The notes below the pieces were generated by a model. It searched no databases. It had not been told where the DNA came from and saw nothing but the letters and a program-made list of their open reading frames with translations. Below are positions 611 to 51,570 of a stretch of DNA of 64,000 nt, piece by piece. Source of the stretch: Dissulfuribacter thermophilus. Lineage in GTDB: Bacteria; Desulfobacterota; Dissulfuribacteria; Dissulfuribacterales; Dissulfuribacteraceae. Where the stretch lies: contig NZ_MAGO01000004.1 of assembly GCF_001687335.1 (NCBI RefSeq), positions 1 to 64,000 of the forward strand, written 5' to 3'. Each line of letters starts with the position of its first letter. The first letter of the stretch is position 1. Made by a program: the position numbers and the translations under genes.

Positions 611-3600
611 TTAAACAGGCTCAACCCTCACAGCACACACCTTGTACTCCGGAGTCAAGGTCTTAACGTCTAGACCAGGACTGGTGAGGAGGTTTGTGAG
701 GGCATCTTCGTAGTGAAAACTCATAAATACAGAGCCTGGTCTGCTCTTATCCGTAACTTTGGCACGAACTGCCACCTCTCCTCGCCTGGAGATGACTCGA
801 ACCATTGCCCCATCTTTTACGTTGAGGCGGATGGCATCATCAGGATGGATCTCCACCTCCTCATATGGGGCAATCTTATCAAAGGCCCGTGCCCTACGGG
901 TCATTGAGCCATTGTTATAGTGCTCAAGTCTTCTACCAGTGATTAGAACCAGCGGATAATCACGGTCTGCATCCTCCTCAGGCATTATGAAATCCACAAT
1001 CTGGAGGTGTCCCTTGCCCTTTGGAAACGACTTTTGATGAAGTAGCGGGGTCCCTGGATGACCCTTTTCCGGACATGGCCAGACCTTTCCGCTATCGTCA
1101 ATATCTTCATAGGAGATCCCTGCATAAGGAGGTGTGAGTTTCGCTATCTCCTCCATAATCTCACTGGGATGACTGTATTCCATTGGATAGCCCATAGCTG
1201 TGGCAAGCTTTGATACAATCTGCCAATCTGGCAGGGCTTCTCCTGGAGGCTCGACCACCTTTCTTATCCTTCTCACTCTACGCTCACCACTTGTAAATGT
1301 GCCATCCTTTTCGTAGAAGCAGGCGCTAGGCAACACAACGTGTGCGAACTCCGCCGTCTTCGTGAGGAACAGGTCTTGATAGACCAAAAAGTCCAAAGAA
1401 CTCAATGCATTGTGAATAAAACCCACATTTCCCTGAGTCTGAGCAGGATCATATCCGATGCAATAGAGAGCCTTGAACTTACCCTGCAAAGCCATCTCAT
1501 ACATCTCTGGTTCCAACAGTCCTGGAGTGGTTGGAAGCTCTGAGACGTTCCAGGCCGTGGCAAAACGTTTTAATGCCTCCACATCATCGGTGTGCTGATA
1601 CCCAGGAAGACTATATGGAAGGGTCCCCATATCGCATGCGCCCTGGACATTGTTCTGGCCTCTAAGTGGGTTGATCCCAGTGCCAGGTCTTCCAACCTGG
1701 CCAGTTGCCAGTACAAGATTTGCAAGGGCCATGACGCCATGGGTGCCTCCTTTATGCTCCGCTACCCCAAGACCATATAAAATCAACGATCTTGGAGATT
1801 GGGCATATATCCTTGCTGCCTGTTCGATCTGCTCTTTGGGCACGCCTGTTATCTGCGAAACACGTTCAGGTGGATAGTCCTTGATGAACTCGATGACTCG
1901 ATCAAGCCCTTCTACCCTTTCAGCAATAAAGTCTCTATTCTCGAGTCCCTGTTCAAATATGCTATAGAGAATACTGTTTAAAAGAGGAATGTTGGTTCCA
2001 GGTTTGAGCCTCAACCACAACCCTTCAGATTGAGCCTCAGCAATCGCAGCCACATCCGTACGTCGCGGATCGATCACAATGAGCTTAACCCCTCTTTTGG
2101 CAGCCTCCTTTATCTTTAAACCTACTATGGGATGGGCCTCTGTGGTATTTGATCCGCATATCAGGAGACAATCGGTCTCAGGTATTTGGGCAAAGGGTGT
2201 TGTTGCAGCACCGCTTCCAAGTGTGGTCGCGAGACCCGCGACCGAAGGAGCGTGTCAGACCCGCGCACAATTGTCTACGTTATTCGTACCTAGGACCGCC
2301 CTGGCAAATTTTTGGAATAAAAAGTTTTCCTCATTGGTGCACCGCGAAGATGCCAGTACACCAATACTGTCACTGCCGTGATTTCGAATAATATCGGAAA
2401 AGCGCTTTGCTATGTAATCCAGGGCCTGATCCCATGAGACCTCTTTAAATGGTTCGTCTATACTGTCTCTAATGAGTGGACGTTTGAGGCGATCTTCGTG
2501 ATTGTAAAAAGTAAAGCCAAATCGTCCCTTTACACAGAGGTCTCCGTAATTTGGTGGTGTATTGTAATCGGCCTTAATTTCAAGGATAGCACCGAGATTG
2601 GCAACAACATCTACGCTGCATCCTGTTCCACAGTAGGTACATACGCTCTTGACCGGCTTTATCTGTTCTGGCCAAAGTGGGACCTTCAGGCCCTTCTTTG
2701 ATAGGGCACCAGTAGGACAGGCATCTACACATGCCCCACAGGATACGCAATTATCTTTGAATCTGATCTCTATATTCTGGAGCCTTCCTGACTGGCCATC
2801 TTCATCAAAATTCAGATAAAGCGCATCGTATTTACAGCTCCTCTCACACCTTGAACACCCAACGCACTTATTTGGATCAACGACAATGAATGGATGTGAA
2901 TCATCAATTTTATACTCGAGCCTCTTGGGAGACTTGGCTGCATTGACCTTGTGATCCACACAAAGTTCTCTATACGTACACTTGGCAAGCCCATGGCATC
3001 CGCATTCAAGACACCGTGATGCCTCTTTTTTGGCCATCTCTTCTGTAAGGCCAAGTTCGATTTCAAAAAAGTCACCAATGCGTCTTTCAGGCGGACGTTC
3101 AGGCATGGATTGGGCCAGGCTCACTGTAAAACCATCATAGTTGTGCATATCGACGTCTTCAAAGCGCTTACCCTTGGTAAAATTAAATCTCGGCTCAGAT
3201 ATACCTGTCTTTTCCCCAACCATGTACTCATGCATGGCCTCTGCAGCGCGCCTTCCTGCTGCAACCGCCTGAATAACAGTCCTTGGCCCGCTTGCACAGT
3301 CACCCCCGGCAAAAATCCCTGGGATATTCGTAGCCATGGTGCTGGGATTGGACTTTATTGTCTTTTTGGGGCTCAATTTCAATTTTGCTTCCAGGTCACC
3401 AAAGGTGGAAATGGTGTCGTCACCCTCCTGACCCAGTGCTGAGATCACTGCATCCCCTTCCCACACGAGCCTGGAGCCTGGCATGGGAACAGGAAAACGT
3501 CTGCCCCTCTCATCTGGCTCTCCAAGGACCGTCCTGGCCATTATGACCTTCACCTTACCATTGTCCATGCGCTCAATAGACAGAGGCGTGGCCATGAGGA

Positions 3601-4723
3601 AGAGCTGTACCCCCTCCTTTTCTGCCTCTTCCACATCGCGCTGCTGGGCCGGCATCTCCACTCGGCTCCTCTCGTACACCACTGTAACATCCCTTACACC
3701 AAGACGCCTTGCTGAACGCGCGGCATCCACTGCCACATCTCCACCACCGATTACGAGGACCTTTGAACCGAGAGAGATTTGCCTGCCGAGATTGATCTTT
3801 TTCAAGAGCTCAAGGCCATCTACGGCAAACTCTCCGCCCTTGATCGAAAGTGATCTTTGCTTCGAGAGCCCAACCGCAATAAATATAGAATCAAAACCCT
3901 GATCTTTGAGGTCACTTAGGGTAAAATCATCTCCCCATCGCCTTCCAACCTTTACATGCACCCCCAGATCCAAGATATTCTGTATCTCTTGTTCCACTAC
4001 CTTGGTGGGGAGCTTGTAGTTTGGAATCCCGTATCTCAGGAGCCCACCGAGTTCCTTTTCTGCCTCGAAGATGGTTACGTCATGGCCGAGCTTTCTCAAA
4101 AAATAAGCGCAGCTAAGACCAGCGGGTCCACCACCAATAATGGCTGCACGTTTGCCTGTGGATTCCCCTGGCCGTTCTTTCAAACCACCTTTGGCCTGAA
4201 CGTAATCTGCCACGAACCTCTTGAGGTGATTTATGCTAATGGGCTCATCCAACAGGACACGCCTACACCTAGTCTCACAAAATCTCGGGCACACCCTCCC
4301 CACAGAGAGCGGCAGGGGATTCTTCTCCTTAATGAGCCTCAGTGCTGCCTCGTATTCCCCTGATGCCACGAGATTCACATAACCCTGAACATTAATTCCA
4401 CCAGGACATGTGAGATTGCATGGCGCCCTGCAATCTCCATAGTGGGTCTGTGCAAGGGTCTCCAGTCTCTGCTTCCGAAAGGCGTCCAAATCCTTGGAGT
4501 GGGCCACTATTACCATTCCATCTTCAACCTCTGTTTTACAGGCCCTGACTCTGCCCTTGCCTTCGACTTCAACCATACAAAGAAGGCAAGGCCTTTTCGG
4601 TTCCACCCCACCTGGCATATTACATAGGTGCGGGATCTTGATCCCTGCACTGTTGGCTGCCTCCAGAATGGTATTACCTTTGGTCGCCTTGATCTCAGAA
4701 TTATCGATCGTAAGTGTAACCAT
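611..4723 (-). CDS. fdhA: Selenocysteine-containing formate dehydrogenase with fused 2Fe-2S, GltD-like FAD and ferredoxin modules
   Basis: 1370 residues if the in-frame TGA at 2255-2257 is read as Sec823; all coordinates here include it. Order of modules: NuoG-like 2Fe-2S domain (about 1-80); a GltD-like FAD/NAD(P)H domain (about 130-560) with two GxGxxG nucleotide motifs (IIGGGPAGLSCAY, VIGGGDVAVDAAR); a Cys-rich segment and two 4Fe-4S motifs (CVGCSRCERSC, CVSCGACVDAC); then the molybdopterin catalytic domain starting with CTYCGTGCSVDVV. The TGA sits in NCARV-U-HAPSVAGLA, the canonical active-site position of Sec-type formate dehydrogenases, and the frame continues uninterrupted to the C terminus. 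Its likely role is interconversion of formate and CO2 at the first step of the methyl branch, with NAD(P)H as electron partner through the fused flavin domain (inferred). It stands alone, 318 bp after acsE. Confidence 0.93.
2225..2243 (-). promoter_or_regulatory. Bacterial SECIS hairpin of fdhA
   Basis: On the coding strand GGTCGCG-GGTCT-CGCGACC forms a perfect 7-bp stem with a five-base loop. It begins 11 bases after the TGA at 2255-2257. The GGUCU loop sequence matches the known apical loop of the Escherichia coli fdhF SECIS. This supports SelB-dependent recoding of the TGA. Confidence 0.88.
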
Positions 4724-5041: not shown

Positions 5042-5932
5042 CTAGAGTTCAAGCCATGACTCGGAAAATACTGTCTTACCCATGAGTACACGAGTTGTCT
5101 TGTAGTATTCGAGCTCTTTTGGCGAAAGATCATCAGGATTTGGTTCATTGCCGTCCATGATATCATGGACGAGTTTTACGAGTTCCGGCCTCTGGCCGTG
5201 TGCGAGCTCCACAAGCTCCTGATCATAAGTATCGACAATGGCAGACCAGATACCATACTTCATAAGCATGGCGAGATAGGCACGGTTTAGATATGGCCTC
5301 TTTTCATGGGAGACACCGTTTGAGACATTTGAAAGGCCAACTGTAGATTTTGCTCCTGGAGCGATTTCCGGAAGCATTGCCATAAACTCAAGCCCACTCA
5401 TCACCTGATCTGAGCCAAGGGTTATTGGAGTAGCAATAGGGTCGATTAATATCTTTTCATTAGGAATACCTGCCTCGTTCATTGCCATAACCAGATCAAC
5501 AGTCATGGCAGCACGCTCATTGGCGTCCCTTGGCATTCCATCAACGCCCCAGAGTAGGCCTACTACATAACAGCCAGCCTCTGCAGCCACTGGAATGAGC
5601 TTTTTCATTCTTTCGGGCTGCAGCGATATGGAATTCATGAGGTGTATCTCTGGGTTTTTGGCTGCCTTGATCCCTGCTATGAGGGCATCTGCATTAGTGG
5701 TATCCAGTGAAAGGGGGCAATCCGTAACGTTTTCTACCACCTTAACGATCCATGGCATGAGGTCTGTCCCGTCTTTTCTTGCAGGACCAATGTTCAAGTC
5801 CAAAAAGTCCGCTCCGTCCCTGACCTCTTCGTTGGCCATTACCTCGATTGGGACAGGGTTCCTTTCCTTCATAGCGGCCCCTGTCCGCTTACCCATTATA
5901 TTGATGCTCTCTGCTATACACTGGACGTACAT
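5042..5932 (-). CDS. acsE: Methyltetrahydrofolate:corrinoid/iron-sulfur protein methyltransferase
   Basis: Transfers the methyl group from methyl-THF to Co(I) of the corrinoid iron-sulfur protein (AcsC/AcsD). The 296-residue product has the pterin-binding TIM-barrel signature: GADFLDLNIGPAR near the N terminus, LSLDTTNADALIAG, and ILIDPIATP later. I start it at the ATG whose upstream GGAGGAAA lies eight bases away. An ATG 36 bases further upstream has no such site and would add only 12 residues. The family is usually about 260 residues, so a C-terminal extension of about 30 is present. It is the last gene of the acs run, 40 bp after acsC. Confidence 0.93.
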   Translation of the reverse strand: MYVQCIAESINIMGKRTGAAMKERNPVPIEVMANEEVRDGADFLDLNIGPARKDGTDLMPWIVKVVENVTDCPLSLDTTNADALIAGIKAAKNPEIHLMNSISLQPERMKKLIPVAAEAGCYVVGLLWGVDGMPRDANERAAMTVDLVMAMNEAGIPNEKILIDPIATPITLGSDQVMSGLEFMAMLPEIAPGAKSTVGLSNVSNGVSHEKRPYLNRAYLAMLMKYGIWSAIVDTYDQELVELAHGQRPELVKLVHDIMDGNEPNPDDLSPKELEYYKTTRVLMGKTVFSESWLEL

Positions 5933-5972
5933 TACGCTCTTTCCTCCTCGTAAAGTTCCAACTTGCATATAA

Positions 5973-7322
5973 TTAAGAGGCCTTCCAGTCCCTCAAGAAT
6001 GCGGGTAAATGGCTTGCTTCCCTCGGACCAACTGTAATAGTCCAGCCTGGAAGTTCGTCTTCCAGTTCACCCTTCATGCCTGCGAGGTAGCCTGGAATAA
6101 TGAGGTTTCTGTGTTTTACCTTGTCTTCAATCCCGCTCTTCTTGACAAAGGAGCCGATGAGATCCGCACTAAATTTTCCTGCTGCCCATGCAGTCAAGAC
6201 TGAAAGCCCTTCAGTATCTTTAATGAGGAGCCATGATGGCACCTTGCTACCTTCAACCTCCCCTGAGACAATGAAGTAAGTGAGAGAAAAGTTACAGGTA
6301 ATGAGGACAGGAGAATTTTCATCTGGACCATTTATTGGATAGATGTCTTCTTGAACCACCATGGGCCTCTGTGGGTCAGTGAAGATATTAAGCCTTTCAA
6401 GGAGGAGCGGAAATAGCGTATCTCCTCTGAGATCAGAAAGTACTGTTATGCCTGCGTACTTACATACGAGTACCGATGTAATCATTGCCTCTACCAGAGG
6501 ATCATCTGCCATCTCGCAGGGCAAGGTAATAGATGGGAATCCAAGGGGCTTATACTTATGATTGATGGCTGCCCGCCTCATGACTACCTGGTCTTCCAAT
6601 GCTCCCTTGAGTGTCCTTGCCCCAGTATCTAAAACGAGGTCCTTGAGGCCCTTTTCCTGAAGGGTTTCTGAGAGTTTTGCAGTCTCTCCAATAGTCTCAC
6701 CCTTTACTGCAAGTGGACAGCCGGTCTCTTTTGCGATCTCAGCCATTTGCTCGAGATTGTCCTTGGTGGCTGCATACAGAAGTGGCTTGTGTTCCCCAAG
6801 GATCTCTGCTCCTTCTTTCAATGCCCCTGGATCTTCACTCATAAGGATAAGTGGGGCTGTCGACGCTTCTTCCCTCACTTTCTTAATGAGTCCAATAAAG
6901 GCGTCTTTGTTTCCGGCATCCTTGATGGCTATGAGATCTGCCTTAAGAGTCAGCCCAACACGTTCATACTTGAGGCTATTAAAACTGGATATTTTTGCGT
7001 TGACCTCTTCGTCACTCATGTCTGATGACACAAGGACTGCAAAACCTGTTGGATTTTCAAAACGTTTCTCATGCCTGAAAAGGCAGGTCTCACCACCAAA
7101 TTTGAAGGTATTGTCTCCTGAACCAATGGTAATGGTCCTTATAGGAGGGGCGGATGCCTCACCCACCTTTTCCTTAACCTCATCTGAAACATAAGGACAC
7201 TTTCCAATGTCCTCTTGGCCTGCTGCAACCTTCATGGCAAATGCAAGGCATGTTGGCACATCGCACTCGCCACAGTTCTTCTTTGGAAGCATCTTCAGGA
7301 TCTCTATCCCAGTAAGAGCCAT
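5973..7322 (-). CDS. acsC: Corrinoid/iron-sulfur protein large (gamma) subunit
   Basis: Carries the cobamide and a 4Fe-4S cluster that shuttle the methyl group from AcsE to acetyl-CoA synthase. The N-terminal cluster motif is clear: KKNCGECDVPTCLAFA followed by a Cys about 20 residues later (IGKCPY). The central TIM barrel and C-terminal cobamide-binding domain follow. At 449 residues it matches the usual length. It lies between acsB and acsE, spaced for co-transcription. Its normal partner AcsD is not a separate gene here but the C-terminal third of the MetF fusion upstream. Confidence 0.94.
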   Translation of the reverse strand: MALTGIEILKMLPKKNCGECDVPTCLAFAMKVAAGQEDIGKCPYVSDEVKEKVGEASAPPIRTITIGSGDNTFKFGGETCLFRHEKRFENPTGFAVLVSSDMSDEEVNAKISSFNSLKYERVGLTLKADLIAIKDAGNKDAFIGLIKKVREEASTAPLILMSEDPGALKEGAEILGEHKPLLYAATKDNLEQMAEIAKETGCPLAVKGETIGETAKLSETLQEKGLKDLVLDTGARTLKGALEDQVVMRRAAINHKYKPLGFPSITLPCEMADDPLVEAMITSVLVCKYAGITVLSDLRGDTLFPLLLERLNIFTDPQRPMVVQEDIYPINGPDENSPVLITCNFSLTYFIVSGEVEGSKVPSWLLIKDTEGLSVLTAWAAGKFSADLIGSFVKKSGIEDKVKHRNLIIPGYLAGMKGELEDELPGWTITVGPREASHLPAFLRDWKAS

Positions 7323-7367: not shown

Positions 7368-9575
7368 TTATACAGCGCTATCCATCTTAAGTGCTGGATG
7401 CCCCTTCTCCTGTAGGAACTTGAGGACCTCATCCTCAGTTGTTCCCACCTCTTCATCTGCAATCATGTCCAGAAGATCTGGCACACCTTCTTCCTCTGCC
7501 CTCTGCTGGAGCCTGTCTCTCAATTCCTCTTTTAGCATCTTTGGCATCCATACAACGCGCTTTAATCCACCTTCAGCCTTCATGAATTTCCTACTACAAA
7601 TGTAGTGCTTTGAGACACCTAGGAATCCGGGTGTAACCTGTCCACCTCCAACCATACCTGCAAGAGTGGAGAACTTCATTCCACTGGGGGTCATGCCAAG
7701 GTAATCTCTGTTTACGATCATGATACCATTGCACATTGGAAGCATGGTAGCAATACACTCAAAGCATCCACAAGCTGTCATGGGATCCACCATGAGACTG
7801 TAGGCGCTTACCCTTTCCACCTTTCCACGGGATGCCTGTTTTACGAATTCATTCACTCCAGTCCACTGACCAAGGTTTTCATCAATACATTCACCCTTTT
7901 GAATAGGCTGGTTTGGACCGGTTGGATTTATCTCATAGGAGGCCTTTCCATCGAGCCAGTTGTATGCGCCACACATACCCACTCTCTCTGGAGTAATGAC
8001 ACAGACGTGTGTTGGCGCAAAGGACTGGCAGAGCGTACAAGAATAGAATACGTCCTCAGACTCGTCTGTCATAGAGCCAAGACGCTCGTCCCTTGCTGCA
8101 TACACCTGTTTTGCAAGCTCTAGGATCTCCTTGACCTTCTCTTCCTCTGTAAAAATCTTTACCTGGACCTTGTCTAGTATTGCACCAAAATCTTGATGTA
8201 ACTTTGCATGGAGGATCTTTCCTATGTGCTCGAACTTGAATCCCTTTTCTATGGCACTCTTTCCAACCCTCAGCCACATGATGTTCCTTTGCCCTATGTG
8301 CATTATTCCCTGGGCATAGTTAATCAGGTGATGGAACTGGCGTTCAAGGATTGGCTCAAAGTCGGATTGCATCTGACGTCCTGCCACCTCTACCAATATT
8401 GCAAATGGAAGCTTTGCGCCTGGCTCGACGTCTGTCATCTCAGGCCCTTCCACTGTCACCAGGCCGTCCTGTACCTCGTCCATCTCTCTAGAAATGAGGA
8501 GTTCTACACCGATGGTCCTTCCTCCACCACATTCCAGATATAGATCGTCCTTTCTAACTCTCTCACCCTCGAAGGCAGGACCATAGGCAACAGGTACATC
8601 CACTTTGCTCACTGTTACCTTGAGTCCCCTCACCTCAATGGCCTTCTGAACGATCTCCTCATGTGGGACCTTGCTCACAACGTGCTCATATGTACAGATA
8701 CCAGTTGGGAGTATCTCAGGAATGTCCCAATCAGATATGGTGGGGAAGCCCCAGTTTATGGCACCTGCAGCATTTGCATACCACTCATCGGATACAGGGC
8801 CAAAGGCCATTACAAATGCAAATGTCCTGTCTTTGTTATAGATAAGATTACCCTTATAGTCGCCTGGTTTTATGCCTCCAAAGGCAAGGGCGACCCTACA
8901 TGCAAAGCCAAGGGCAAAAACGGCTGAAGTATAGGTTGGTCCAAAGGGGACAAGACGTGTAGACCATCCCATCTGGACGTTTTGCTTTTTCAACTGGTCA
9001 GGCATGCTGACCCCATCTGTCTGATCATGCATAAATATGTAGAGATTCTTTTCCTGGAGTTCGAGGGCAATCTTTGCAGCCATCTCTGGATCTGGAGGGG
9101 TACCCAAAATCGCCGCAAATCCTGGTGCAGTTCCATCCACGAACTCTACGCCGCGCTTTCTGAAGATGATATCGTCTGCTGCGCCGAGCCAGATCTGGTC
9201 ATCAGATGGAGGATCCTCTGTCTTGGTATAAAAATTGGGCTCATCAATATAGCGGATTGCTTCATACATCTCCTCTGCAAAGAGGGTAGCCATTCCAGCA
9301 TCAAGGGCTGGGGCAAGGTATGGAAGCCACATTGAGTCACTTACCGGTGGAGGAAGGAGCTTTCTACACTCCTGAAAGATCTCCTTCATATCCCCGAGCT
9401 TTTGGACCTTGGCCCCAAGCATACTATATATAATTGGGAGGAAATAAGCAGTATTAGGAAACGAGACTTCTTGCTCAGGCCCATACTTTTTCAGGGCCTC
9501 CTCGTACTTTTCCTCGGCCATGTCCACAATCTTATGTGCTCCCCTTATTGCTGCTGAACAGATTATCTTAGACAT
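7368..9575 (-). CDS. acsB: Acetyl-CoA synthase (CODH/ACS beta subunit), bacterial type
   Basis: Condenses CO, the corrinoid-bound methyl group and CoA into acetyl-CoA at the Ni-Ni-4Fe-4S A-cluster. The cluster ligands are present: SCTLCQSFAPTHVCV, then RVGMCGAYNW, and the nickel-binding Cys-Gly-Cys in MTACGCFECI. Length is 735 residues, close to the roughly 730 of the bacterial enzyme, with the N-terminal CODH-contact domain present (the archaeal form lacks it). It lies 29 bp after the metF-acsD fusion gene and 45 bp before acsC. Confidence 0.96.
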   Translation of the reverse strand: MSKIICSAAIRGAHKIVDMAEEKYEEALKKYGPEQEVSFPNTAYFLPIIYSMLGAKVQKLGDMKEIFQECRKLLPPPVSDSMWLPYLAPALDAGMATLFAEEMYEAIRYIDEPNFYTKTEDPPSDDQIWLGAADDIIFRKRGVEFVDGTAPGFAAILGTPPDPEMAAKIALELQEKNLYIFMHDQTDGVSMPDQLKKQNVQMGWSTRLVPFGPTYTSAVFALGFACRVALAFGGIKPGDYKGNLIYNKDRTFAFVMAFGPVSDEWYANAAGAINWGFPTISDWDIPEILPTGICTYEHVVSKVPHEEIVQKAIEVRGLKVTVSKVDVPVAYGPAFEGERVRKDDLYLECGGGRTIGVELLISREMDEVQDGLVTVEGPEMTDVEPGAKLPFAILVEVAGRQMQSDFEPILERQFHHLINYAQGIMHIGQRNIMWLRVGKSAIEKGFKFEHIGKILHAKLHQDFGAILDKVQVKIFTEEEKVKEILELAKQVYAARDERLGSMTDESEDVFYSCTLCQSFAPTHVCVITPERVGMCGAYNWLDGKASYEINPTGPNQPIQKGECIDENLGQWTGVNEFVKQASRGKVERVSAYSLMVDPMTACGCFECIATMLPMCNGIMIVNRDYLGMTPSGMKFSTLAGMVGGGQVTPGFLGVSKHYICSRKFMKAEGGLKRVVWMPKMLKEELRDRLQQRAEEEGVPDLLDMIADEEVGTTEDEVLKFLQEKGHPALKMDSAV

Positions 9576-9604: not shown

Positions 9605-12600
9605 TTACATAAGTCCCTTTATCATTGCCTCTGTAAGGGCAACAGCTCTTGGATGGCGCATAATCATGAGCTCACCCCCTGCCAAAAGGAGGGAGGAAGC
9701 AGTTATCGCCTCTAGCAATATTGAGCGGACCTCTTGATCTCCTAGGAACTCATCAGATGGTAACTTCACTTCTTTTGCCTTCCACACCTCACGCCCAACA
9801 TTACAAATAAAGGGCGCTTGGAGCTTTTCATCCTGCTGCATTAACGCTGCGAGCCTGATCCTCTCCATAACAGAGTAGGTATATTCGAGCCCGTAACCCA
9901 CTGCACCTATGGAGGGGTCCATGAGGATGTGATCAAGGCCAATACCAAGGTTCTCTAGGAGGATATTCAACTGCTTTGCCAGGTTCACGTCTATGGGAGT
10001 AGATGCCACTACTGGCAGACCAAAGGCCATGGCCGTGGCGCCGAGGTTACGGTAGTTTGCGTCAGTAAGAGGGCCTATACACACCTTTTTGTCGCCTACT
10101 AGGGCGGTTACTTCGCGAAGTGTCTCTGTGTCCTTCTCTGCATTTCCACAACCCCAGAGGATCACGGGACAGTCCACTGCATCGATAACCTCTTTTGCCA
10201 CCTTGGCTGCTTCACTGCTTGGTCTGTCCATTCCATTAGGATCTGTACTCACCAAGCTTAGACAGATGGCCTGAGCGTTATATTCAGAGACACACTTTTG
10301 TGCCCACTTTACTGGATCATCAAGGCAGTCTCCGTAGTATTTCTTGAGTGGCTCTGGCATCTCCTCTGGTGGGGAGTCCAACACATCAAATGCAATCCTA
10401 GGCGCATATGGCATGTCGCCCTCAAAGAGGTGAAATGGCAGAGCGCTTGCTCCTCCCACTGTAAGCGCCTTGTCGCCGTCTCCAAGAACCACCTCTTTAA
10501 TAGCGCCAGTGGACTTTTCGAGGAAAAGATCCTCTGGAATATCTCCAATCCTATCTTTGAGGCTTGTGGTCTCTGCTTTAAAGGTAAACTCTCCAGAGAC
10601 ATCTAGTGCAGTTGCCTTGGGAGGCTCTGCCTTTTTCTCTGGCTGAGTCTCCTTTTTCTCCTCAACCTTTGGTTCCTCTGCGGTCGGCTTGACTTCTTCT
10701 ACAACCTCCACGTCTGCAGGCTTCTCTTCTTCTTTGGCCTGCTCTTCTACCTTTTCTTCAGGAGCACATGCTTCATCCCTTGGTGCCTCATAGCTTGGAA
10801 ACTCACCCTTTTGGGCTGCTTCTAGGCCTTTTTTCGCCTTCTCATTGTCTGGATCCAGCTTCAAGGCCTCTTCGAAATATTTAATTGCCTCATCCTGGGC
10901 CTTTTCATAGAGGGCGCAGTTACCCGTGGCCACAAGGCGAATCACATACTTTCTCTGCCATTCTTCCTGGGTAAGTCCTTCAGGACATGGTGGAAGTCCC
11001 TCTGTTGAGGCCGGGGCAACTGATTCGGCCTTTTTCAAGGCCTCTTCTGCCTCTTTAAGGCCGGCCTTGGCCTTTTCATCGTCAGGATCGATTGATAAGG
11101 CCTTTTTAAAGGCTTCTACAGCCTCATTGGCCTTACCCTGGTGTAAGAGGACATTGGCCTTGGCTACGAGGTTAACCACCTCTTTGTCGCGTTTGGGTTC
11201 TTCCTCTACCCTTTCCTCTACTGCCTTTTCCTCTACTTTTTCCTCAATTACCTCTGGAGCACTGACCTCGGGCTGTGGTGTTGCGGCAGGAGGTACTTTT
11301 GCCTGCACTACCTCAGTCACACCCTCACCCTTTAATACAAACTCTGCCTCAATAAATCTCTTCAGTGCTTCATAGGCCTCATCTTCCAGGCCAAGTACCT
11401 TCTTAAGTGCCTCGAGCCCAAGCTCCATAGAACGAAGGGCGTAATCAAGTTGCTTCTTAGACACAATATCTTCCTCCAATCCAATAGTTTGGTCACCCTC
11501 TTCGATTTGGATGGTCCTTGCACCCATTTCATGGGCCTTTTCGAGTCTTGCCTTCTCTTCTTTAAGTGCTGAGAGAAGTTCTTGAATCTTTTTCTCCTTT
11601 TCCTGAAGGATCCTTTCCTTCTCATCTATCTGGGAGCGAAGCTCCAAGATCTCTTTGGCTCCCCTTTCCTTCTCCTTTGCAACAAGTTCTCTTGAGGCCT
11701 CTGCTTCTTTCTTATATTGGTCGACCTTTTCCAAAAGGCGTGCCTCTGCCTCTTCTCTCGCCTTACGAACTGCCTCGTCAATTGCATCCATGCCCATTAG
11801 CACTGGCTCTAGTCTGGCCTCTGGCCTGGGCAATAGTCCTGACCGTTTTACGATCTCAGGCACTGCCTCTTCCCATTCAATTGCCATTACGTGCACACCT
11901 GCCACACCAGGTATCTCTTTTACCTGGTTGATGATGTCCACTGCTATCTCAATTCCCTCTTCACGAACGTCTTTGGCATCTTTGAGGCGTTTTATCACGT
12001 CATCTGTGACCTCAAGGCCTGGGACGAAATTCTTCATATACCTTGCCATTCCAAGTGACTTGGGTGGGGTCACACCAGCTAATATATAGACGCGTTCAGT
12101 GAGTCCCAGGTCCTCGACCCGCTTCATAAACTCCTTAAATTTATCCACATTATAGATTATCTGGGTCTGGACAAAGTTTGCCCCAGCATCGACCTTCTTC
12201 TTCAGCCTGATTGGCCTATACTCAAAGGGATCTGCAAAGGGATTTGCAGCAGCTCCGAGAAAGAGCCTTGGTTCTCCACCCTTTATCTCCTCACCGCACT
12301 GGAAGCGCTTTTCATCACGCATTGCCTTTACCATTTGAAGGAGCTGGATGGAGTCCATGTCAAAGACCCCTTTGGACTGGGGATGATTACCAAACTTTTG
12401 ATGGTCTCCTGTAAGACACAGAAGGTTTCTAATCCCAAGGGCGTGTGCGCCAAGGATGTCGGCCTGCATTCCAATCCTGTTTCTGTCTCGACAGGTCATC
12501 TGCATCACAGGCTCAACTCCCTCGGATAAGGCAATGAGCCCAGCAGTCAAGCTCGACATCCTCACTATTGCAGTCTGACAATCGGTTATGTTTACAGCGT

Positions 12601-12733
12601 CAACAAAGCCCTTTAGGATCTTTGCCTTTTTTCTAACTACTTCTCTGTTCCCACTCTTTGGGGGACCAAGCTCTCCTGTGACTGCAAACTGCCCGCTTTT
12701 TAAGACTGTCTCTAAATTGCTTCCAGCTATCAC
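9605..12733 (-). CDS. MetF-coiled coil-TPR-AcsD fusion: methylene-THF reductase joined to corrinoid protein small subunit
   Basis: One uninterrupted 1042-residue frame with four parts. Residues 1 to about 300 are a methylenetetrahydrofolate reductase TIM barrel (FAVTGELGPPKSG, NITDCQTA, LLCLTGDH). Residues about 315-400 are a long Glu/Lys/Arg coiled coil. Residues about 400-710 hold a small alpha-helical stretch, acidic linkers and two TPR-like repeats ending in IDPDDEKAKAGL and LDPDNEKAKKGL. Residues about 711-1042 are a full-length AcsD/CdhD small corrinoid subunit (LTVGGASALPFHLFEG, KQLNILLENLGIGLDHI, DPSIGAVGYGLEYTYS). Adjacent metV (four-base overlap) and acsB fit both halves. No separate acsD occurs here. 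The physical coupling of methyl-THF production to the methyl acceptor complex is inferred. The linker may instead be a scaffold for Hdr/Mvh or CODH/ACS partners. Confidence 0.9.
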   Translation of the reverse strand: MIAGSNLETVLKSGQFAVTGELGPPKSGNREVVRKKAKILKGFVDAVNITDCQTAIVRMSSLTAGLIALSEGVEPVMQMTCRDRNRIGMQADILGAHALGIRNLLCLTGDHQKFGNHPQSKGVFDMDSIQLLQMVKAMRDEKRFQCGEEIKGGEPRLFLGAAANPFADPFEYRPIRLKKKVDAGANFVQTQIIYNVDKFKEFMKRVEDLGLTERVYILAGVTPPKSLGMARYMKNFVPGLEVTDDVIKRLKDAKDVREEGIEIAVDIINQVKEIPGVAGVHVMAIEWEEAVPEIVKRSGLLPRPEARLEPVLMGMDAIDEAVRKAREEAEARLLEKVDQYKKEAEASRELVAKEKERGAKEILELRSQIDEKERILQEKEKKIQELLSALKEEKARLEKAHEMGARTIQIEEGDQTIGLEEDIVSKKQLDYALRSMELGLEALKKVLGLEDEAYEALKRFIEAEFVLKGEGVTEVVQAKVPPAATPQPEVSAPEVIEEKVEEKAVEERVEEEPKRDKEVVNLVAKANVLLHQGKANEAVEAFKKALSIDPDDEKAKAGLKEAEEALKKAESVAPASTEGLPPCPEGLTQEEWQRKYVIRLVATGNCALYEKAQDEAIKYFEEALKLDPDNEKAKKGLEAAQKGEFPSYEAPRDEACAPEEKVEEQAKEEEKPADVEVVEEVKPTAEEPKVEEKKETQPEKKAEPPKATALDVSGEFTFKAETTSLKDRIGDIPEDLFLEKSTGAIKEVVLGDGDKALTVGGASALPFHLFEGDMPYAPRIAFDVLDSPPEEMPEPLKKYYGDCLDDPVKWAQKCVSEYNAQAICLSLVSTDPNGMDRPSSEAAKVAKEVIDAVDCPVILWGCGNAEKDTETLREVTALVGDKKVCIGPLTDANYRNLGATAMAFGLPVVASTPIDVNLAKQLNILLENLGIGLDHILMDPSIGAVGYGLEYTYSVMERIRLAALMQQDEKLQAPFICNVGREVWKAKEVKLPSDEFLGDQEVRSILLEAITASSLLLAGGELMIMRHPRAVALTEAMIKGLM

Positions 12734-13398
12734 GGCAATAAATCCTCCCTAATTCTGTGGCGTGGGCCCCCATGACCCGCTGTTGTCCAATCCCTTATGG
12801 GCATGATTTCTTCGAGCGATGAATCTTCGCCAAATCCCTTGAGTTTTTCATAGATCATATGCCACACACAGTTCACATTAGGATCTATCTCACACAATCC
12901 TCCCTGAGAACCACCGCATGGGCCATTAGACAGGCTCTTTGCACACCTTGCTACAGGGCACAGGCCGCCAGTTAGATGAAGCACACATGACCCACACCCT
13001 GCACACATTTCCTTCCATTCTCCACTAGAAAGGTTGGCCCCATAAAAACTGGTGTCTAGTGCTGGTTTAACTTTTACTCCCGGGCACCTGTCTGCTATAA
13101 AATTGACACCGACTCCACAGGCCATTGACAGCACGCAGTCATAGCCTTTACCGGTCTCCTTAAGGGGCTCCAGGTACTCTGGATCACACTGCCGCACGAA
13201 TGTCTCCTCCACCACCTCAATCTCTTCACCTCTGCGCTTCTTCCCAAGCCTTATGGCAGAGGCAAGGGTCTTGACCTCCTTATCGCCACCTGCCGAACAC
13301 ACTGCAACGCACCCCCTGCAGCCAAGGACCAACACCTTCTTTGCCCCTTCGAGCATATCTAGGATCTCTTGTAGGGGTTTTTGTGAAGCAATAATCAT
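12730..13398 (-). CDS. metV: MetV-type Cys-rich partner of methylene-THF reductase
   Basis: A 222-residue protein of the MetV family, which binds metal clusters and is required for activity of the acetogen-type MetF. Cysteine motifs include CRGCVAVCSAGG near residue 30, CAGCGSCVLHLTGGLCP, and the family hallmark SNGPCGGSQGGLCE. It overlaps the start of the MetF fusion by four bases and follows the Cys-type mvhD paralogue by two, so it is clearly part of the same transcript. In acetogens MetV links MetF to Hdr/Mvh proteins, and the same arrangement is implied here. Confidence 0.88.
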   Translation of the reverse strand: MIIASQKPLQEILDMLEGAKKVLVLGCRGCVAVCSAGGDKEVKTLASAIRLGKKRRGEEIEVVEETFVRQCDPEYLEPLKETGKGYDCVLSMACGVGVNFIADRCPGVKVKPALDTSFYGANLSSGEWKEMCAGCGSCVLHLTGGLCPVARCAKSLSNGPCGGSQGGLCEIDPNVNCVWHMIYEKLKGFGEDSSLEEIMPIRDWTTAGHGGPRHRIREDLLP

Positions 13399-13400
13399 AT

Positions 13401-13781
13401 CTATGCGCTCCTTTTTGTCGTCCTTTTCTCCATCTCTTTTATGGCCTCTACGACATCTGCCGTGGAACCTCGATCTGCAAAAAACATCTCAACAAGCTGT
13501 GGGTCCATCCCCAGCTCTTCAATAAGACTCTTTGCGTACTTCACCCTTTTCGAGGCCCTGAGGCTCCCTGTCTTGTTGTGACAAGTCTCCATCTTACACC
13601 CTGCCACGAAAACGGCCTCGGCCCCATCGCTGAAGGCGTCTAAGAGCTCTGAAACTTGAAGGCGTCCTGTACAGGGAAGGCGCCTTATTATCACCCCTTC
13701 CCCAATTACGCCCTCTTTTTCAAGGACATCAACTGGGACCTGGGCAGTATAGTTACAGCAAAAACCTACTATCCTTGCCAT
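13401..13781 (-). CDS. MvhD-family iron-sulfur subunit, cysteine paralogue
   Basis: A 126-residue member of the MvhD (hydrogenase delta/iron-sulfur) family. It starts with FCCNYTA and has LPCTGRLQVSELLDAF. At the position where the upstream paralogue has Sec it has an ordinary Cys (VFVAGCKMETCHNKTGS, against GG-U-HLGECH). It probably carries a 2Fe-2S cluster passing electrons between the HdrA flavoprotein and MetFV. It lies between hdrC-like and metV with gaps of two bases. Presence of both a Sec and a Cys version in one transcript suggests two non-redundant electron-transfer sites, or an internal back-up (inference). Confidence 0.82.
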   Translation of the reverse strand: MARIVGFCCNYTAQVPVDVLEKEGVIGEGVIIRRLPCTGRLQVSELLDAFSDGAEAVFVAGCKMETCHNKTGSLRASKRVKYAKSLIEELGMDPQLVEMFFADRGSTADVVEAIKEMEKRTTKRSA

Positions 13782-13783
13782 AC

Positions 13784-14338
13784 TTACCTCTCTTGCGTTT
13801 GAGCGGCCTCTAACGATGGCCTGAGTTCTATAGCCTCTGCAGGACAGTCCTTAACGCATATTCCACACGCCCTGCAAAAATCCGGATCAATAAATGCATA
13901 TCCCTCCTGGATTATCCGCGGGGCCCCAAAAGGACACACCCTAACGCAGGTAAGACATGCAACACACTTACCAGGATCGACGTAAGCGAGGAGCCCCAGA
14001 TCCTTTCTCTTCTCCTCATTTACTATACCGGCCTTTACAGCCTCTTCTCTGAGGGCCTTTATGACATCTGCACAGCGGACATTTTGTGGGCATACCGGTA
14101 TGCAACTCTGGCACTGGGAACAGGCCCAGATAATGTCGGATTCCATTAGTTCCTTGGTAAGACCAAGGCCAACCATGTGGACGATCTTTCTTGGGTCAAA
14201 GGCATCCACCACCTTTTCCACAGGGCATGCACTGGAACATGATCCACACGTATAGCACCCGAGGACAGTATCCGTGCCCTCATGTGACTGGAGATTACGT
14301 GTTGCATTATTATCAAATCTAGTCGCCTGTATCGTCAT
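13784..14338 (-). CDS. hdrC: HdrC-like protein with four 4Fe-4S motifs
   Basis: The 184-residue product starts with an HdrC-like unit: CYTCGSCSSACPVE and CSQCQSCIPVCPQN. It then adds a two-cluster ferredoxin: CVACLTCVRVCPFG and CRACGICVKDCPAE. Classical HdrC has only the first two clusters, so this is an HdrC-polyferredoxin fusion that could replace several electron carriers. No HdrB (CCG-domain) gene is next to it or elsewhere in the window. It sits between the two mvhD genes. Its most likely role is relaying electrons between HdrA and the MetF/MetV module. Confidence 0.83.
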   Translation of the reverse strand: MTIQATRFDNNATRNLQSHEGTDTVLGCYTCGSCSSACPVEKVVDAFDPRKIVHMVGLGLTKELMESDIIWACSQCQSCIPVCPQNVRCADVIKALREEAVKAGIVNEEKRKDLGLLAYVDPGKCVACLTCVRVCPFGAPRIIQEGYAFIDPDFCRACGICVKDCPAEAIELRPSLEAAQTQER

Positions 14339-14352
14339 TTCGGTTACCTCAC

Positions 14353-14964
14353 TTATGAATGACTAAGCTGCTTTTCAAAGGCAGGGACCACCTTCTTTAA
14401 AACTCCCTCCTGAATTGCAGCCTCATCATATTGACCCGCCTTATTGAGACTCTTTGCGAGGGTACCAAAGGCTGTCCGAATCTTTGTATTTTTTGCGGCC
14501 TTTACAGCAGCTTCAAGTTTCTTCATTACCTCGTCACGCCCAGGCTCTCCCTCACCTTCTCCTAGGGGGCCTAGTTCCTTTATCTTCATACAGTAATCAG
14601 TTATAAGCTGAACAAATCTGGGGCCTTCTGCCGCTGAGGCCCACTCAAGATCGAACCTTTTGGGATTGACTCCACACATCTTGAGTACCTGCCTCACAGA
14701 TTCTGCCATGACCATCGCTTCGTAATTACCAGACTGGTAATGACACTCTCCCAAGTGTCACCCACCAGTGAATACTCCATCTGCGCCCACCTTGAACGCC
14801 TCAAGGATGAAGCGCATATCAATCCTTCCAGTACACATGACTCTAATAACCCGCACGTTTGGCGGATATTGATAACGTGAGACCCCTGCTGAATCTGCTG
14901 CTGCATAACAGCACCAGTGGCAGAAAAAACCTAATATCCTGGGGTTGAATTGTTCCTGTGTCAT
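14353..14964 (-). CDS. mvhD: Selenocysteine-containing MvhD/VhuD-type iron-sulfur subunit
   Basis: 203 residues when the in-frame TGA at 14758-14760 is read as Sec69; without that it would be two fragments. The frame on both sides is MvhD: FFCHWCCYAAADSAGVSR and VRVMCTGRID before it, then GVFTGG-U-HLGECHYQSGNY. The matching position is Sec in methanococcal VhuD and Cys in most MvhD proteins. The protein passes electrons between a donor and the HdrA flavin through a 2Fe-2S cluster. A C-terminal extension of about 70 residues (FDLEWASAAEGPRFVQLI onwards) is common in Hdr-associated bacterial versions. It lies 49 bp after hdrA. Confidence 0.9.
14725..14741 (-). promoter_or_regulatory. Candidate SECIS hairpin of mvhD
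   Basis: On the coding strand ATTACCA-GTC-TGGTAAT forms a perfect 7-bp stem (or 6 bp with an AGTCT loop). It starts 16 bases after the TGA at 14758-14760. The G-U-C loop matches the feature shared by the other two SECIS candidates in this window. A competing stem, TGACAC/GTGTCA, includes the TGA itself. Confidence 0.75.
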
Positions 14965-15013: not shown

Positions 15014-18000
15014 TTATTTCACATCATCCTTTTGGCCAAAGGCATGGATCTGGGCGAAAATTGCCTCGTCTGTAAATCCGCCCATGCTGATGGCAACTGT
15101 TGGGCAGTGAGAGGCGCATATGCCGCAGCCCTTACATGAGGCTGTAATGGTCCGGGCCTTTCTCTTCTTGTCCACTTTAACCAACTCAATAGCGCTAAAC
15201 GGACAAAGTGATGCACATATACCGCACCCAATACACTTTTTCTGATCAACCCTAGAGACGATGGGCGCCACAGCGACTTTTCCTTTTGCTAGTGGTATCG
15301 CGGCCTTAGCCGCTGCTGCCCTGGCCTGGGCCATGGCATCTTCAAGGCCCTTGGGTCCGTGGGCTAGGCCACAGAGATACACTCCATCGACTGCCACCTC
15401 TACAGGACGAAGTTTTGCATGGGCCTCAAGGAAAAATCCATCCTTTGTGAGCGGGGCCTTCAAAACTTGCGCCAGTTCTTCGTTGTCCCCTGGGGCAATC
15501 CCTGTAGAAAGGACAACGTAACTCGATTGTATCTCTAGCTCTTCACCTACTATATTGTCATAGACCTTTACAGCGATCCCCCTACCCTTCTTCATGATTT
15601 GAGGCCGATTATCAGGCTGGTACCTAATAAATTTGATACCCTTCAACCTGGCCTCTCGATAGAGATCTTCATAAAATCCATAGGTCCTCATGTCTCTATA
15701 GAGGATAAATATGTCGAGCTCTGGTTTTATATCTTTGAGCTTGAGGGCGTTTTTAACGGCCTGAGTACAGCAGATGCGGCTACAATAGGCCATATCTTCG
15801 CCACGGCTTCCAACACACTGGATCATCACTACCCTTGATGCGCTCTTAAGGAAGCTATAGCCACGTGACAGTTTCTCTTCGAGTTCCAACTGTGTTAAAA
15901 CACGATCTGACTCACCATAGAGATAGCCTTTTGGCTTATACTCTTTTCCACCAGTGGCCACCACTACGACACCGTGGTTGATAAGCTCGCTTTTACCTGC
16001 CCTCTCCACAGTAGTGGTAAAGTTTCCAATATATCCAGAGACATTCTTTATCTCGGTCTCGAGCATTATGTCGATGTCTGGATGGGACTCTACTCTGGCT
16101 ACAAGATCATCGAGAACCGTCTTTGCGTCTTCCCCATCCGCGGTCCACCTAACGCGCCTGAGATTTCCGCCGAGAGTCTTTGACCTCTCTACGAGCACTA
16201 CCTTAAAGCCCTGATCAGCAATACTGAGCGCAGCAGCCATACCAGAGGCACCACCACCAATGACCAGTGCAGACGGCGTTACATCTACTGTTGGCTGCTC
16301 AAGTGGCTCCAAGAGCCTTGCCTTAGCCACTGCCATCCTCACTAGATCCTTGGCCTTTTCAGTAGCAGCCTCTGGTTCCTGGGCATGGACCCATGCACAT
16401 TGGTCTCTGATGTTTGCCATCTCAATAAGTGCAGGGTTGAGACCAATGGACCTAAGTGTTTCTTGGAACAGTGGCTCATGTGTCCTTGGAGAACACGCGG
16501 CAATTACCACTCTGTTGAGCCTATTTTCCTTGATCCTCTCTGCTATGGTCTTTAATGCATCCTGAGAGCACGAATATAGTGTATCTTCATAGAGGACTAC
16601 TCCTGGTAGGCTACCTGCATAGTCGCGTACAGCCTTTACGTCCACTACACCTGCGATGTTGACACCGCAGTGACATACGAAGACTCCGATCCTTGGCTCT
16701 TCCTCACATAGAGCCTTGTCTTCATCTGGATATGTGACAGTAACTGCCTTTGTTCCCCTTGCCTCCTTCAAGAGCTCTGAGACGTGGGCAGCAACACCAG
16801 AGGCCTGGGTTACGCTCTCAGGGATATCCTTTGGCCCTTGGAAGGCTCCTGCCACAAACACTCCAGGCACTGATGTGGACAACGGTGAGCCTGATGTTGT
16901 CTTACAAAATTCATATTTATTAAGCTCAATTCCTGTGGTCTCTTGAATGATCTTTGCATCCTCTGGTGCCTTCAATCCAACAGATAGGACCACCATATCA
17001 AAGAGGGCACTGGATGATGTACCGTCCTCCATGACGTATGTAAGGGCAAGTTTTCCATCGACCTCTTCCACCTTTGGGACCCTTGCCCTAATGATGTTCA
17101 GTCCGTACTTCTTTATGGCCTCTTCTCTAAAGGCATCAAAGCCCTTGCCCATTGTACGGACGTCCATGAAAAATAGGGATATGTCAAGGTCTGGCTCGTG
17201 TTCCTTTGCGACACTCGCCTCCTTTATCGCGTACATACAACAGACTGATGAACAAAAACCGTTTCCACAGCTTTCGTCACGAGATCCCACACACTGGAGG
17301 AAAGCGATCTTTTTGGGCGTGGTCTGATCCGATGGCCTTACTATGTGCCCTTCGGTGGGACCAGATGCGCACGTGAGACGCTCAAATTCGAGGCTTGTCA
17401 CCACATCAGGGTACTTACCATATCCAAAGCGCTCTAACACCTCATCATCTATACGGCCGAATCCAGGTGCAAGGACAACACTACCCACTTGAAGCTCAAG
17501 ATTTTCTGGCTTTTGGCTAAAATCTATTGCCCCTGCTGTACAGGTCTGAGCGCAAAGATTGCAAGTTTCGTGGTTTACTCTCAAACACTCTTTGGCATCA
17601 ATATAATAACTTGATGGAATTGCCTGGGCATAATCGATGTGGGGTGCACGGGTTACCTCAAGGCGCTCATTATACCAATCGACTACTGGTTTTGGGCAGT
17701 ACATAGTGCAGATCCCACACGCTGTACACTTGTCTTCATCTATATATCTTGGCCTTTTGAGGACTTTTGCCACAAAGTTTCCTGGCTCTCCCTCAAGGGC
17801 CTTCAACTCGGCATTTGTAATTATTTCTATGTTTGGAGACCGACCGGCCTCAACTAACTTTGGTGCAAGTATTCATATGGCACAGTCATTGGTAGGGAAA
17901 GTCTTGTCCAGTTGTGCCATAACCCCACCAATGGATGCCTTTTTCTCCACCAAGTACACATAGTATCCAAGGCCTGCCATATCCAATGCGGCCTGCACTC

Positions 18001-50067: not shown

Positions 50068-51570
50068 CTATGAAGGCACTTTGTCAACTCTTTTTTTTAG
50101 AAATACCTTAACCCAGCTAGAACGCTTCCATTCCTCCCAATCTCGCGGGGATAACGTATGTTTTAAGAACGTACACTGCTGTTCAAGTGCCCTTAATCTC
50201 TTATATACGCGCACATAAAAACATGGTTTTTCCCCAGGCCAAACCTCGCACCAACCATCTCTACTTCCACCACATGGACCGTTCAAAAGCCCTTTAGCAC
50301 ACTGTGACTGGGGACAAAGATACGCAAATTCAGTTAAAACGCAATTGCCGCACATCTGGCATTCATAGAGCGGGGCCTTGACAGCCTTTTCAAAGGATGT
50401 AAGCACTCCGTTTAATCCCCCCTTTTCAAGGAGCCTGATAAGAGTCTTTGTGGGACCAAAAAGGTACTTTCCCTCTTCAAAAAAAAGCTCATGCACAAAG
50501 CTGCTCGTGCGATAAGAGAGATATTCTCCGATCGGAAGCTTTGTCCTCTGAGTTTTTGTGCGTTCTCGCTTATTTAGCCCATTTTTTTCATCCTTTTCAT
50601 ACAGAAAAAATTCCCAAAGATGCGGAAACTCAAATTCACCAATGAAGTCCCACCACAAGTCCTTTATAGCCTCAGAGCGATTTATCATCCACGCAACATC
50701 TTCGTAAGCAAGGCCAGGCCCACTTATATGTACGCCATTATAGCCAAGTCCTCTGAGCACTGCTATGAGGCGAGCCCCAAATTCCAGCCGATCCCTTTTC
50801 CCTGGCCCTTTCCAGGACTCCATCCTCGACAACAGTTCATCTGGAAGTACACAGCCAGGTACCACCCCCTTATTTATTGCCCGGGCAAGCCTAGGACTTG
50901 GGAGAAATACTGTTCCGTAAACAGGGATATCGATACCAGCTTCTTCCATAAAGAATAAAAGTTCCTGAAATTTCCTCGCATCGAATCCCATCTGCGTGAT
51001 TACATATTCAGCCCCACTTTCCACCTTCTTCTTGAGCTTGAGATACTGGCCTATGAGTTCACCCTCCAGACGTTTAAACGGACTTACCACACAGCCCGGC
51101 CTAAAGGGCATGGGAGAAAGGCGGGTTCCACCACCTGGGGCCCTGGGATCTATTAAAAACCCCTTTTTCATCTGGGAAATCATTTCGAGTACAACGACCG
51201 AGTCGATGTCAAATACGGGCTTTGGAATCCCCTTATATCCGTATCTAGGATAATCCCCTGTCAGCACCAAAAGATTCCTCAACCCGTGGCGGTCCAGTTC
51301 AAAGAGCTGACTTTCTATCAAATTCCTGTTTTTATCCTTACAGGAGAAATGGATTATTGGAGTGATCCCCAGGGTCTGGATTTCTCGACCAAGTGCGGTT
51401 GGAGAAAGTGCCGGATGCCCTCCTGCATTGTCAGTTATTGAGAGTGCGCTAAGTATCCCGTCGTCTACAGCCTTTTGGGCAAAAGAAATTATGTCATCAA
51501 GGGCCTTGCCCCTGGAGGCCCTGGCTGGAACAAGCTCAAAGGTATATTTAAAGTCATGGTCCTTTTTCAC
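50068..51570 (-). CDS. Second methylene-THF reductase, MetF-MetV fusion
   Basis: 500 residues. The first 290 are a MetF barrel (FELVPARASRGKALDDI, FSCKDKNRNLIESQLFEL, LLVLTGDYPRYG). The C-terminal 150 form a MetV-like Cys-rich domain (CQMCGNCVLTEFAYLCPQ, LLNGPCGGSRDGWCEVW). So the two polypeptides that are split in the acs cluster are joined here. Its start overlaps selB by four bases. It may serve biosynthetic methyl-THF supply (methionine) or be a second isoenzyme; a nearby metG is suggestive only. Confidence 0.88.
   Translation of the reverse strand: MKKDHDFKYTFELVPARASRGKALDDIISFAQKAVDDGILSALSITDNAGGHPALSPTALGREIQTLGITPIIHFSCKDKNRNLIESQLFELDRHGLRNLLVLTGDYPRYGYKGIPKPVFDIDSVVVLEMISQMKKGFLIDPRAPGGGTRLSPMPFRPGCVVSPFKRLEGELIGQYLKLKKKVESGAEYVITQMGFDARKFQELLFFMEEAGIDIPVYGTVFLPSPRLARAINKGVVPGCVLPDELLSRMESWKGPGKRDRLEFGARLIAVLRGLGYNGVHISGPGLAYEDVAWMINRSEAIKDLWWDFIGEFEFPHLWEFFLYEKDEKNGLNKRERTKTQRTKLPIGEYLSYRTSSFVHELFFEEGKYLFGPTKTLIRLLEKGGLNGVLTSFEKAVKAPLYECQMCGNCVLTEFAYLCPQSQCAKGLLNGPCGGSRDGWCEVWPGEKPCFYVRVYKRLRALEQQCTFLKHTLSPRDWEEWKRSSWVKVFLKKRVDKVPS

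Follow-up and report, generated by a model that had tools for sequence, protein, structure and literature searches.

In the Wood-Ljungdahl pathway, MetF and its partner MetV produce methyl-THF, AcsE moves the methyl group to the corrinoid protein AcsC/AcsD, and AcsB then uses it. The MetVF-type methylene-THF reductase (MTHFR) of Moorella is associated with Hdr and MvhD proteins. The known MetF is a stand-alone subunit of about 300 amino acids, and the known AcsD, the small subunit of the corrinoid iron-sulfur protein (CFeSP), is also a stand-alone protein, of about 310-320 amino acids. In C. ljungdahlii, two MetVF heterodimers make up the dimeric MTHFR (PMC8760232).

Here we describe a gene from Dissulfuribacter thermophilus, metF::acsD, in which MetF bears a linker and AcsD, the latter forming the C-terminal third of a protein of 1042 amino acids. 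The locus resembles those of the MetVF-type reductases of C. ljungdahlii and Moorella in that metV is located directly upstream of the MetF part, with HdrA and MvhD genes beside it.

The fusion gene and its genomic neighborhood

The window, by which we mean the whole stretch of 64,000 nucleotides that was analyzed, contains a cluster on the minus strand that encodes, in this order, CODH, HdrA, MvhD, an Fe-S protein, MvhD, MetV, the fusion protein, AcsB, AcsC, AcsE and formate dehydrogenase. The CODH catalytic subunit (AcsA/CooS) was identified with the NCBIfam model TIGR01702 (18143-20137) and is followed by an HdrA2-like subunit (15014-17806). Domain searches identified the MvhD/FlpD, Fe-S and MvhD/FlpD proteins (13401-14760), the MTHFR partner metV (DUF5981, 12730-13398), acetyl-CoA synthase (acsB, 7368-9575), the CFeSP large subunit (acsC, 5973-7322) and the methyl-THF:corrinoid methyltransferase (acsE, 5042-5968). 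A formate dehydrogenase with NADH-binding and molybdopterin domains was recovered at 611-4723 by reading through a TGA codon. AcsA, AcsB, AcsC, AcsD and AcsE are all encoded between 5042 and 20137, AcsD solely as part of the fusion.

In-frame TGA codons, probably for selenocysteine, were observed in the genes for formate dehydrogenase (CARV-U-HAPSVAG, 2255-2257), MvhD (GG-U-HLGECHYQ, 14758-14760) and HdrA (about 17873-17875). The frame of the HdrA2-like subunit goes on upstream of its TGA, and that of the upstream MvhD probably does so as well. The window also contains selB (51567-53495) and, beside it, a second MTHFR gene (50068-51570) with a MetF-like domain and a MetV-type C-terminal domain (DUF5981).

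The fusion gene is a single uninterrupted frame of 1042 codons on the minus strand (9605-12733). Its GTG start codon (12733) lies a short way downstream of a GGGAGG ribosome site, and its stop is at 9605; the metV stop and the start of the fusion gene share four nucleotides, as GTGA. An earlier note on this DNA had described such a continuous frame, which is borne out, although it did not give the strand. Pfam searches place an MTHFR domain at residues 8-299 (1.5e-40) and a CdhD/AcsD domain at residues 747-989 (1e-42), and 59 distinct complete genes with the same fusion were found. The protein is a genuine single-chain fusion of two known Wood-Ljungdahl proteins that is real, old and selected.

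The MetF and AcsD domains

The MetF domain comprises residues 1-300 (11834-12733), as had been claimed. It scored 139.8 bits against PF02219, for which the cut-off is 24, with positions 3-287 of the 287-position profile aligned to residues 8-299. A sequence search of the PDB matched residues 70-307 to MTHFR, and the MetF part of the AlphaFold2 (AF2) model superposes on the Thermus MTHFR (8eac) with a TMt of 0.78. Residues E21, T108-G109-D110 and T190-Q191 are invariant across 45 fused proteins. In the alignment, the conserved Glu, Gly-Asp and Thr-Gln correspond to E18, GD and TQ of the Thermus enzyme, and we take them to be Glu28, Asp120 and Gln183 of the E. coli MTHFR. The invariant residues fall on positions that are conserved in the active site of known MTHFRs; the key residues have been kept.

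The AcsD domain forms a TIM barrel at residues 747-1042 (9608-10495), as identified with the Pfam CdhD model and 2h9a_B. Residues 737-1039 matched this CFeSP small subunit in the PDB sequence search (2.9e-82), and the AcsD part of the AF2 model superposes on it with a TMt of 0.94 at 44% identity. Across the known AcsD structures 2h9a, 4djd and 9fzy, the full barrel is matched at 40-44% identity with TMt values of 0.89-0.94. The AcsD part is therefore full-length, as suggested previously, with its start at about residue 737 rather than 711. The domain is AcsD by the wider models and not by NCBIfam NF040759 (WLP_AcsD, an "exception" model), against which the fusion scored 296 bits, under the curated cut-off of 430; it passed the subfamily model NF003376 (364.6 versus a cut-off of 280).

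The earlier note had suspected that the fusion is the sole acsD copy, since no stand-alone gene is present at the locus. This holds genome-wide: in the 2.52 Mb genome, which is 99.97% complete, PF03599 (the CdhD family) detects two proteins alone, AcsC and the fusion. Other forms of AcsD were observed elsewhere. A class of stand-alone AcsD proteins of about 500 amino acids (L141, L144, L147) is extended at the C-terminus by a conserved stretch of roughly 190-200 residues, which closes with a WYGEGYGSEKRKKPA-like sequence, and genome G384 contains a second AcsD of the never-fused type (L149, G384:C81, frame 516) on a short contig that is possibly assembly contamination.

Anatomy of the linker

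An AF2 model of the window protein was built on 45 fused orthologs. The two ends are confident and the middle is flexible, both in this model and in that of a fused protein with a short linker (pTM 0.47 and 0.49, respectively), values at which the models carry no information on assembly and a fixed domain arrangement or tunnel is not indicated. The short-linker protein was modeled in search of a rigid contact of MetF with AcsD within one chain; this contact gained no support and was rejected.

The linker begins with a charged, coiled-coil-like helix of 87 residues (315-401; 11531-11791), identified from the AF2 model, heptads and profiles, and restricted to the window's order. For the coiled coil of the earlier note, AF2 predicts a long single helix, but the heptad pattern is borderline in the window protein: of 1000 shuffles, 52 reached the contrast of its best 28-mer. 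Fewer did so in several orthologs, where the pattern is clearer. The segment is likely a coiled coil. It is followed by a helix pair, SMELGLEALKKVLGLEDEAYEALKRFIEAEF (residues 423-469; 11327-11467), predicted by AF2 as helices 423-447 and 451-469.

Two TPR-like repeats, also proposed earlier, are borne out by Pfam and by three-helix units in the AF2 model. TPR_1 and TPR_2 exceed the Pfam cut-offs in the window protein, TPR_2 in two stretches with the best at 523-552 (4e-11) and the second at about 603-629, and a TPR match was obtained in 28 of the 45 fused proteins. Unit 1 (residues 517-571; 11021-11185) is also supported by the alignment and is missing from several members of the window's order, e.g., L034, L060 and L061. 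Unit 2, with its leading PPCP..EEW motif (residues 580-642; 10808-10996), was seen in the alignment, the profiles and the AF2 model (three-helix unit 589-642), and is present in every examined protein of the order.

Disordered stretches in the AF2 model cover residues 403-424, 469-513 and 647-707. The last of these, with pLDDT below 50, falls in a linker rich in acidic residues, Pro and Lys (residues 644-721; 10571-10804). Between this linker and the barrel is a 24-residue segment, SLKDRIGDIPEDLFLEKSTGAI (residues 722-745; 10499-10570), recognized from profiles and from comparison with split and never-fused AcsD proteins, the latter of which are without it.

Linker length varies about fourfold across the fused proteins, the shortest linkers being about 105-115 residues, and the greater part of the linker is not common to the different lineages. 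By their profiles, the long helix and the TPR unit with PPCP..EEW occur in the window's order alone; TPR-like repeats are also present in families f70 and f95. Since relatives do without the long helix and TPR unit 2, neither can be essential to the basic function; both are additions of one order. The helix-pair island is common to the window's order and its Desulfobulbales-type sister branch (profile matches of about 1e-11 to 1e-15). The pre-AcsD profile matched proteins in the window's order, the Thermodesulfobacteria-type branch and part of the Desulfobulbales-type branch; the segment is present in most fused lineages and two split relatives, and in none of 21 never-fused AcsD proteins.

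Pairwise dN/dS was 0.016-0.077 for MetF, the most conserved part of the fusion, versus 0.04-0.39 for the linker; these ranges cover pairs with measurable dS, pairs saturated in dS having been set aside. The linker is thus translated and under purifying selection, yet mostly composed of modules that are optional across the clade. No second match to the linker was found in the rest of its own genome, and an origin from another gene of that genome was rejected.

Distribution and origin of the fusion

We searched a phylum sample of 395 genomes, of which 252 bear AcsD. MetF and AcsD in one frame (722-1174 amino acids) were found in 40 of these 252 genomes, from 15 families; the window's order contributes all of its 17 sampled genomes, and six other families the remaining 23. 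The layout is thus a clade-wide trait, not one peculiar to this locus, and the domain-order search recommended in the earlier note finds its answer in the 59 distinct complete genes in which both ends lie in one unbroken frame. The fusion is present in G066, a single contig of 2,025,450 bases that corresponds to the circular chromosome of Dissulfurimicrobium hydrothermale Sh68, an isolate of the order Dissulfuribacterales (PMC8780430), and in the complete single-contig genomes G028 and G065. An assembly error or frameshift is rejected by the complete chromosomes and the 59 genes, and so many genes with the same two ends also exclude chance.

In trees of MetF, AcsD and the concatenated domains, all fused proteins form one clade with the proteins of G100 and G345, which encode the MetF and AcsD chains separately (support 99-100). 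Independent fusions in different families are unsupported by the three trees. It is unlikely that the split state of G100 and G345 is ancestral, since they are nested inside the fused clade and their AcsD proteins contain the pre-AcsD segment; its absence from never-fused AcsD proteins supports fission. Two state changes suffice for the trees, and our best reading of them is one fusion and one later fission. That these two genomes have split the gene again indicates that the fusion is not indispensable. In the never-fused relatives L112 and L113 of family f57, metV, metF, acsD, acsB, acsC and acsE are adjacent, and such a gene order was likely the starting point of the fusion.

Each of the 17 genomes tested, 16 with the fusion and one never fused, encodes MetV as well as AcsE. 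In the Desulfobulbales-type genomes, metV and acsE are located far from the fusion, which has been kept; loss of the two genes was rejected, as they are present at other places in the genome.

Other fusions were observed in the sample. In three family f37 genomes, AcsC and AcsE share one frame (776-817 amino acids) and are connected by a charged Lys/Glu linker (L115, 2461-4863, minus strand; L122, 12111-14561, plus strand; L134, 2631-4958, minus strand), and L122 has the MetF-AcsD fusion besides. In G026, AcsD is fused to the CODH catalytic subunit (CooS) through a Pro/Ala-rich linker (L143, 5315-8683, plus strand; 1123 amino acids). Like the MetF-MetV protein of the window, these join parts of the methyl branch or of CODH/ACS, mostly by charged or Pro/Ala linkers, but the partners differ, and in no case is MTHFR joined to AcsD.

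Proposed function and alternative explanations

We consider it probable that the fusion is a bifunctional polypeptide of the methyl branch, in which a flexible tether holds MetVF near the corrinoid protein and ACS. Together with MetV and the Hdr/MvhD proteins encoded in its operon, the MetF domain would reduce methylene-THF to methyl-THF. The AcsD domain and AcsC would pair as the corrinoid protein, which would receive the methyl group from AcsE and hand it to AcsB. The linker, a flexible tether with helical modules, would ensure 1:1 production of MetVF and CFeSP and keep them together near ACS, so that methyl-THF would be released beside AcsE and CFeSP, and the methyl branch would act as a co-assembled unit that may run in reverse during acetyl-CoA cleavage. 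We infer from the gene sequences that the protein is intact in the cell, that it tethers its two ends and that it is a member of a complex.

The earlier note had regarded MetF and AcsD as donor and acceptor in a possible channeling scaffold, with docking of AcsE, MetV or Hdr on the linker; such docking gained no support here. They are not consecutive in the pathway, since AcsE, a separate protein here, acts between them. As no confident packing of MetF against AcsD was predicted either (pTM < 0.5), a raised local concentration by tethering is better supported than a fixed tunnel. In the window's order, the long helix may dimerize the chain, which by analogy would fit the dimeric MetVF of C. 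ljungdahlii (PMC8760232), and the TPR units may be a docking site for some partner. A full scaffold, in which the long helix dimerizes, the TPR units dock AcsE or CODH/ACS and methyl-THF is passed on reversibly to the corrinoid protein without release, is conceivable, but we hold it to be rather doubtful.

The strongest alternative to the tethered bifunctional protein is that neighboring metF and acsD genes fused once and that the gain is 1:1 synthesis and co-expression without channeling, the linker being a mere spacer. The same gene order in the unfused L112 and L113, the one fission and the variation of linkers between clades are consistent with this. However, the helix-pair and pre-AcsD segments have been kept across deep splits, the dN/dS of the linker is well below 1, and 350-450 linker residues are unneeded for 1:1 dosage alone. 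Furthermore, the fusion has outlived the metV/acsE gene order in the Desulfobulbales-type genomes, which speaks against its being simply a by-product of how the operon is built. We therefore regard this explanation as unlikely.

It is considerably less probable that the chain is cut in a disordered linker, or that translation of AcsD begins internally, with separate MetF and AcsD proteins doing the work. Long acidic linkers of low AF2 confidence would permit this, G100 and G345 encode separate proteins, and in 11 of the 59 genes a weak SD-like start candidate is present at some point upstream of the AcsD part. Yet a protein that is always cut is not expected to keep linker modules under selection. 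The candidate starts are not conserved in position among the 59 fused genes, and that of the window gene, its only one, is non-ATG and without SD; an internal translation start was rejected on these grounds.

Finally, it is very improbable that the MetF part merely aids assembly while another MTHFR produces methyl-THF: two further, distant MTHFR-domain genes do exist in the genome (C1:11431-12225 and window 50068-51570), but the key residues are invariant, MetF is the most conserved part of the fusion, metV is located directly upstream in the window, and in G028 and G065 the fusion is the sole MTHFR domain and the sole AcsD and must serve both steps.

Significance for the methyl branch

Searches of the PMC full-text literature and of papers on the fused taxa (PMC12827605, PMC4911364, PMC8780430, PMC7117923, PMC12142623) found no mention of a MetF-AcsD fusion. 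We provisionally conclude that the fusion is undescribed; published genome descriptions seem to have overlooked it. For D. hydrothermale, LGS26_08700 and LGS26_08025 are listed as MTHFR, LGS26_01915 as AcsB and LGS26_01930 as a hydrogenase iron-sulfur subunit (PMC8780430). In L120, the fused gene is located between acsB and metV/MvhD and is absent from that MTHFR listing. The fusion accounts for such annotation gaps, i.e., "missing" acsD or metF genes and lists of MTHFRs without the pathway's own copy.

The hosts of the fusion are CO2-fixing, sulfur-metabolizing bacteria, including cultured sulfur disproportionators and thermophiles. A methyl-branch metabolon is hard to test where each enzyme is a protein of its own and the enzymes dissociate. 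In the fusion, a single polypeptide under selection links the reductase that makes the methyl group to the corrinoid protein that carries it, a tether that can be cut and the effect measured, and its natural linkers are designs for synthetic CO2 fixation.
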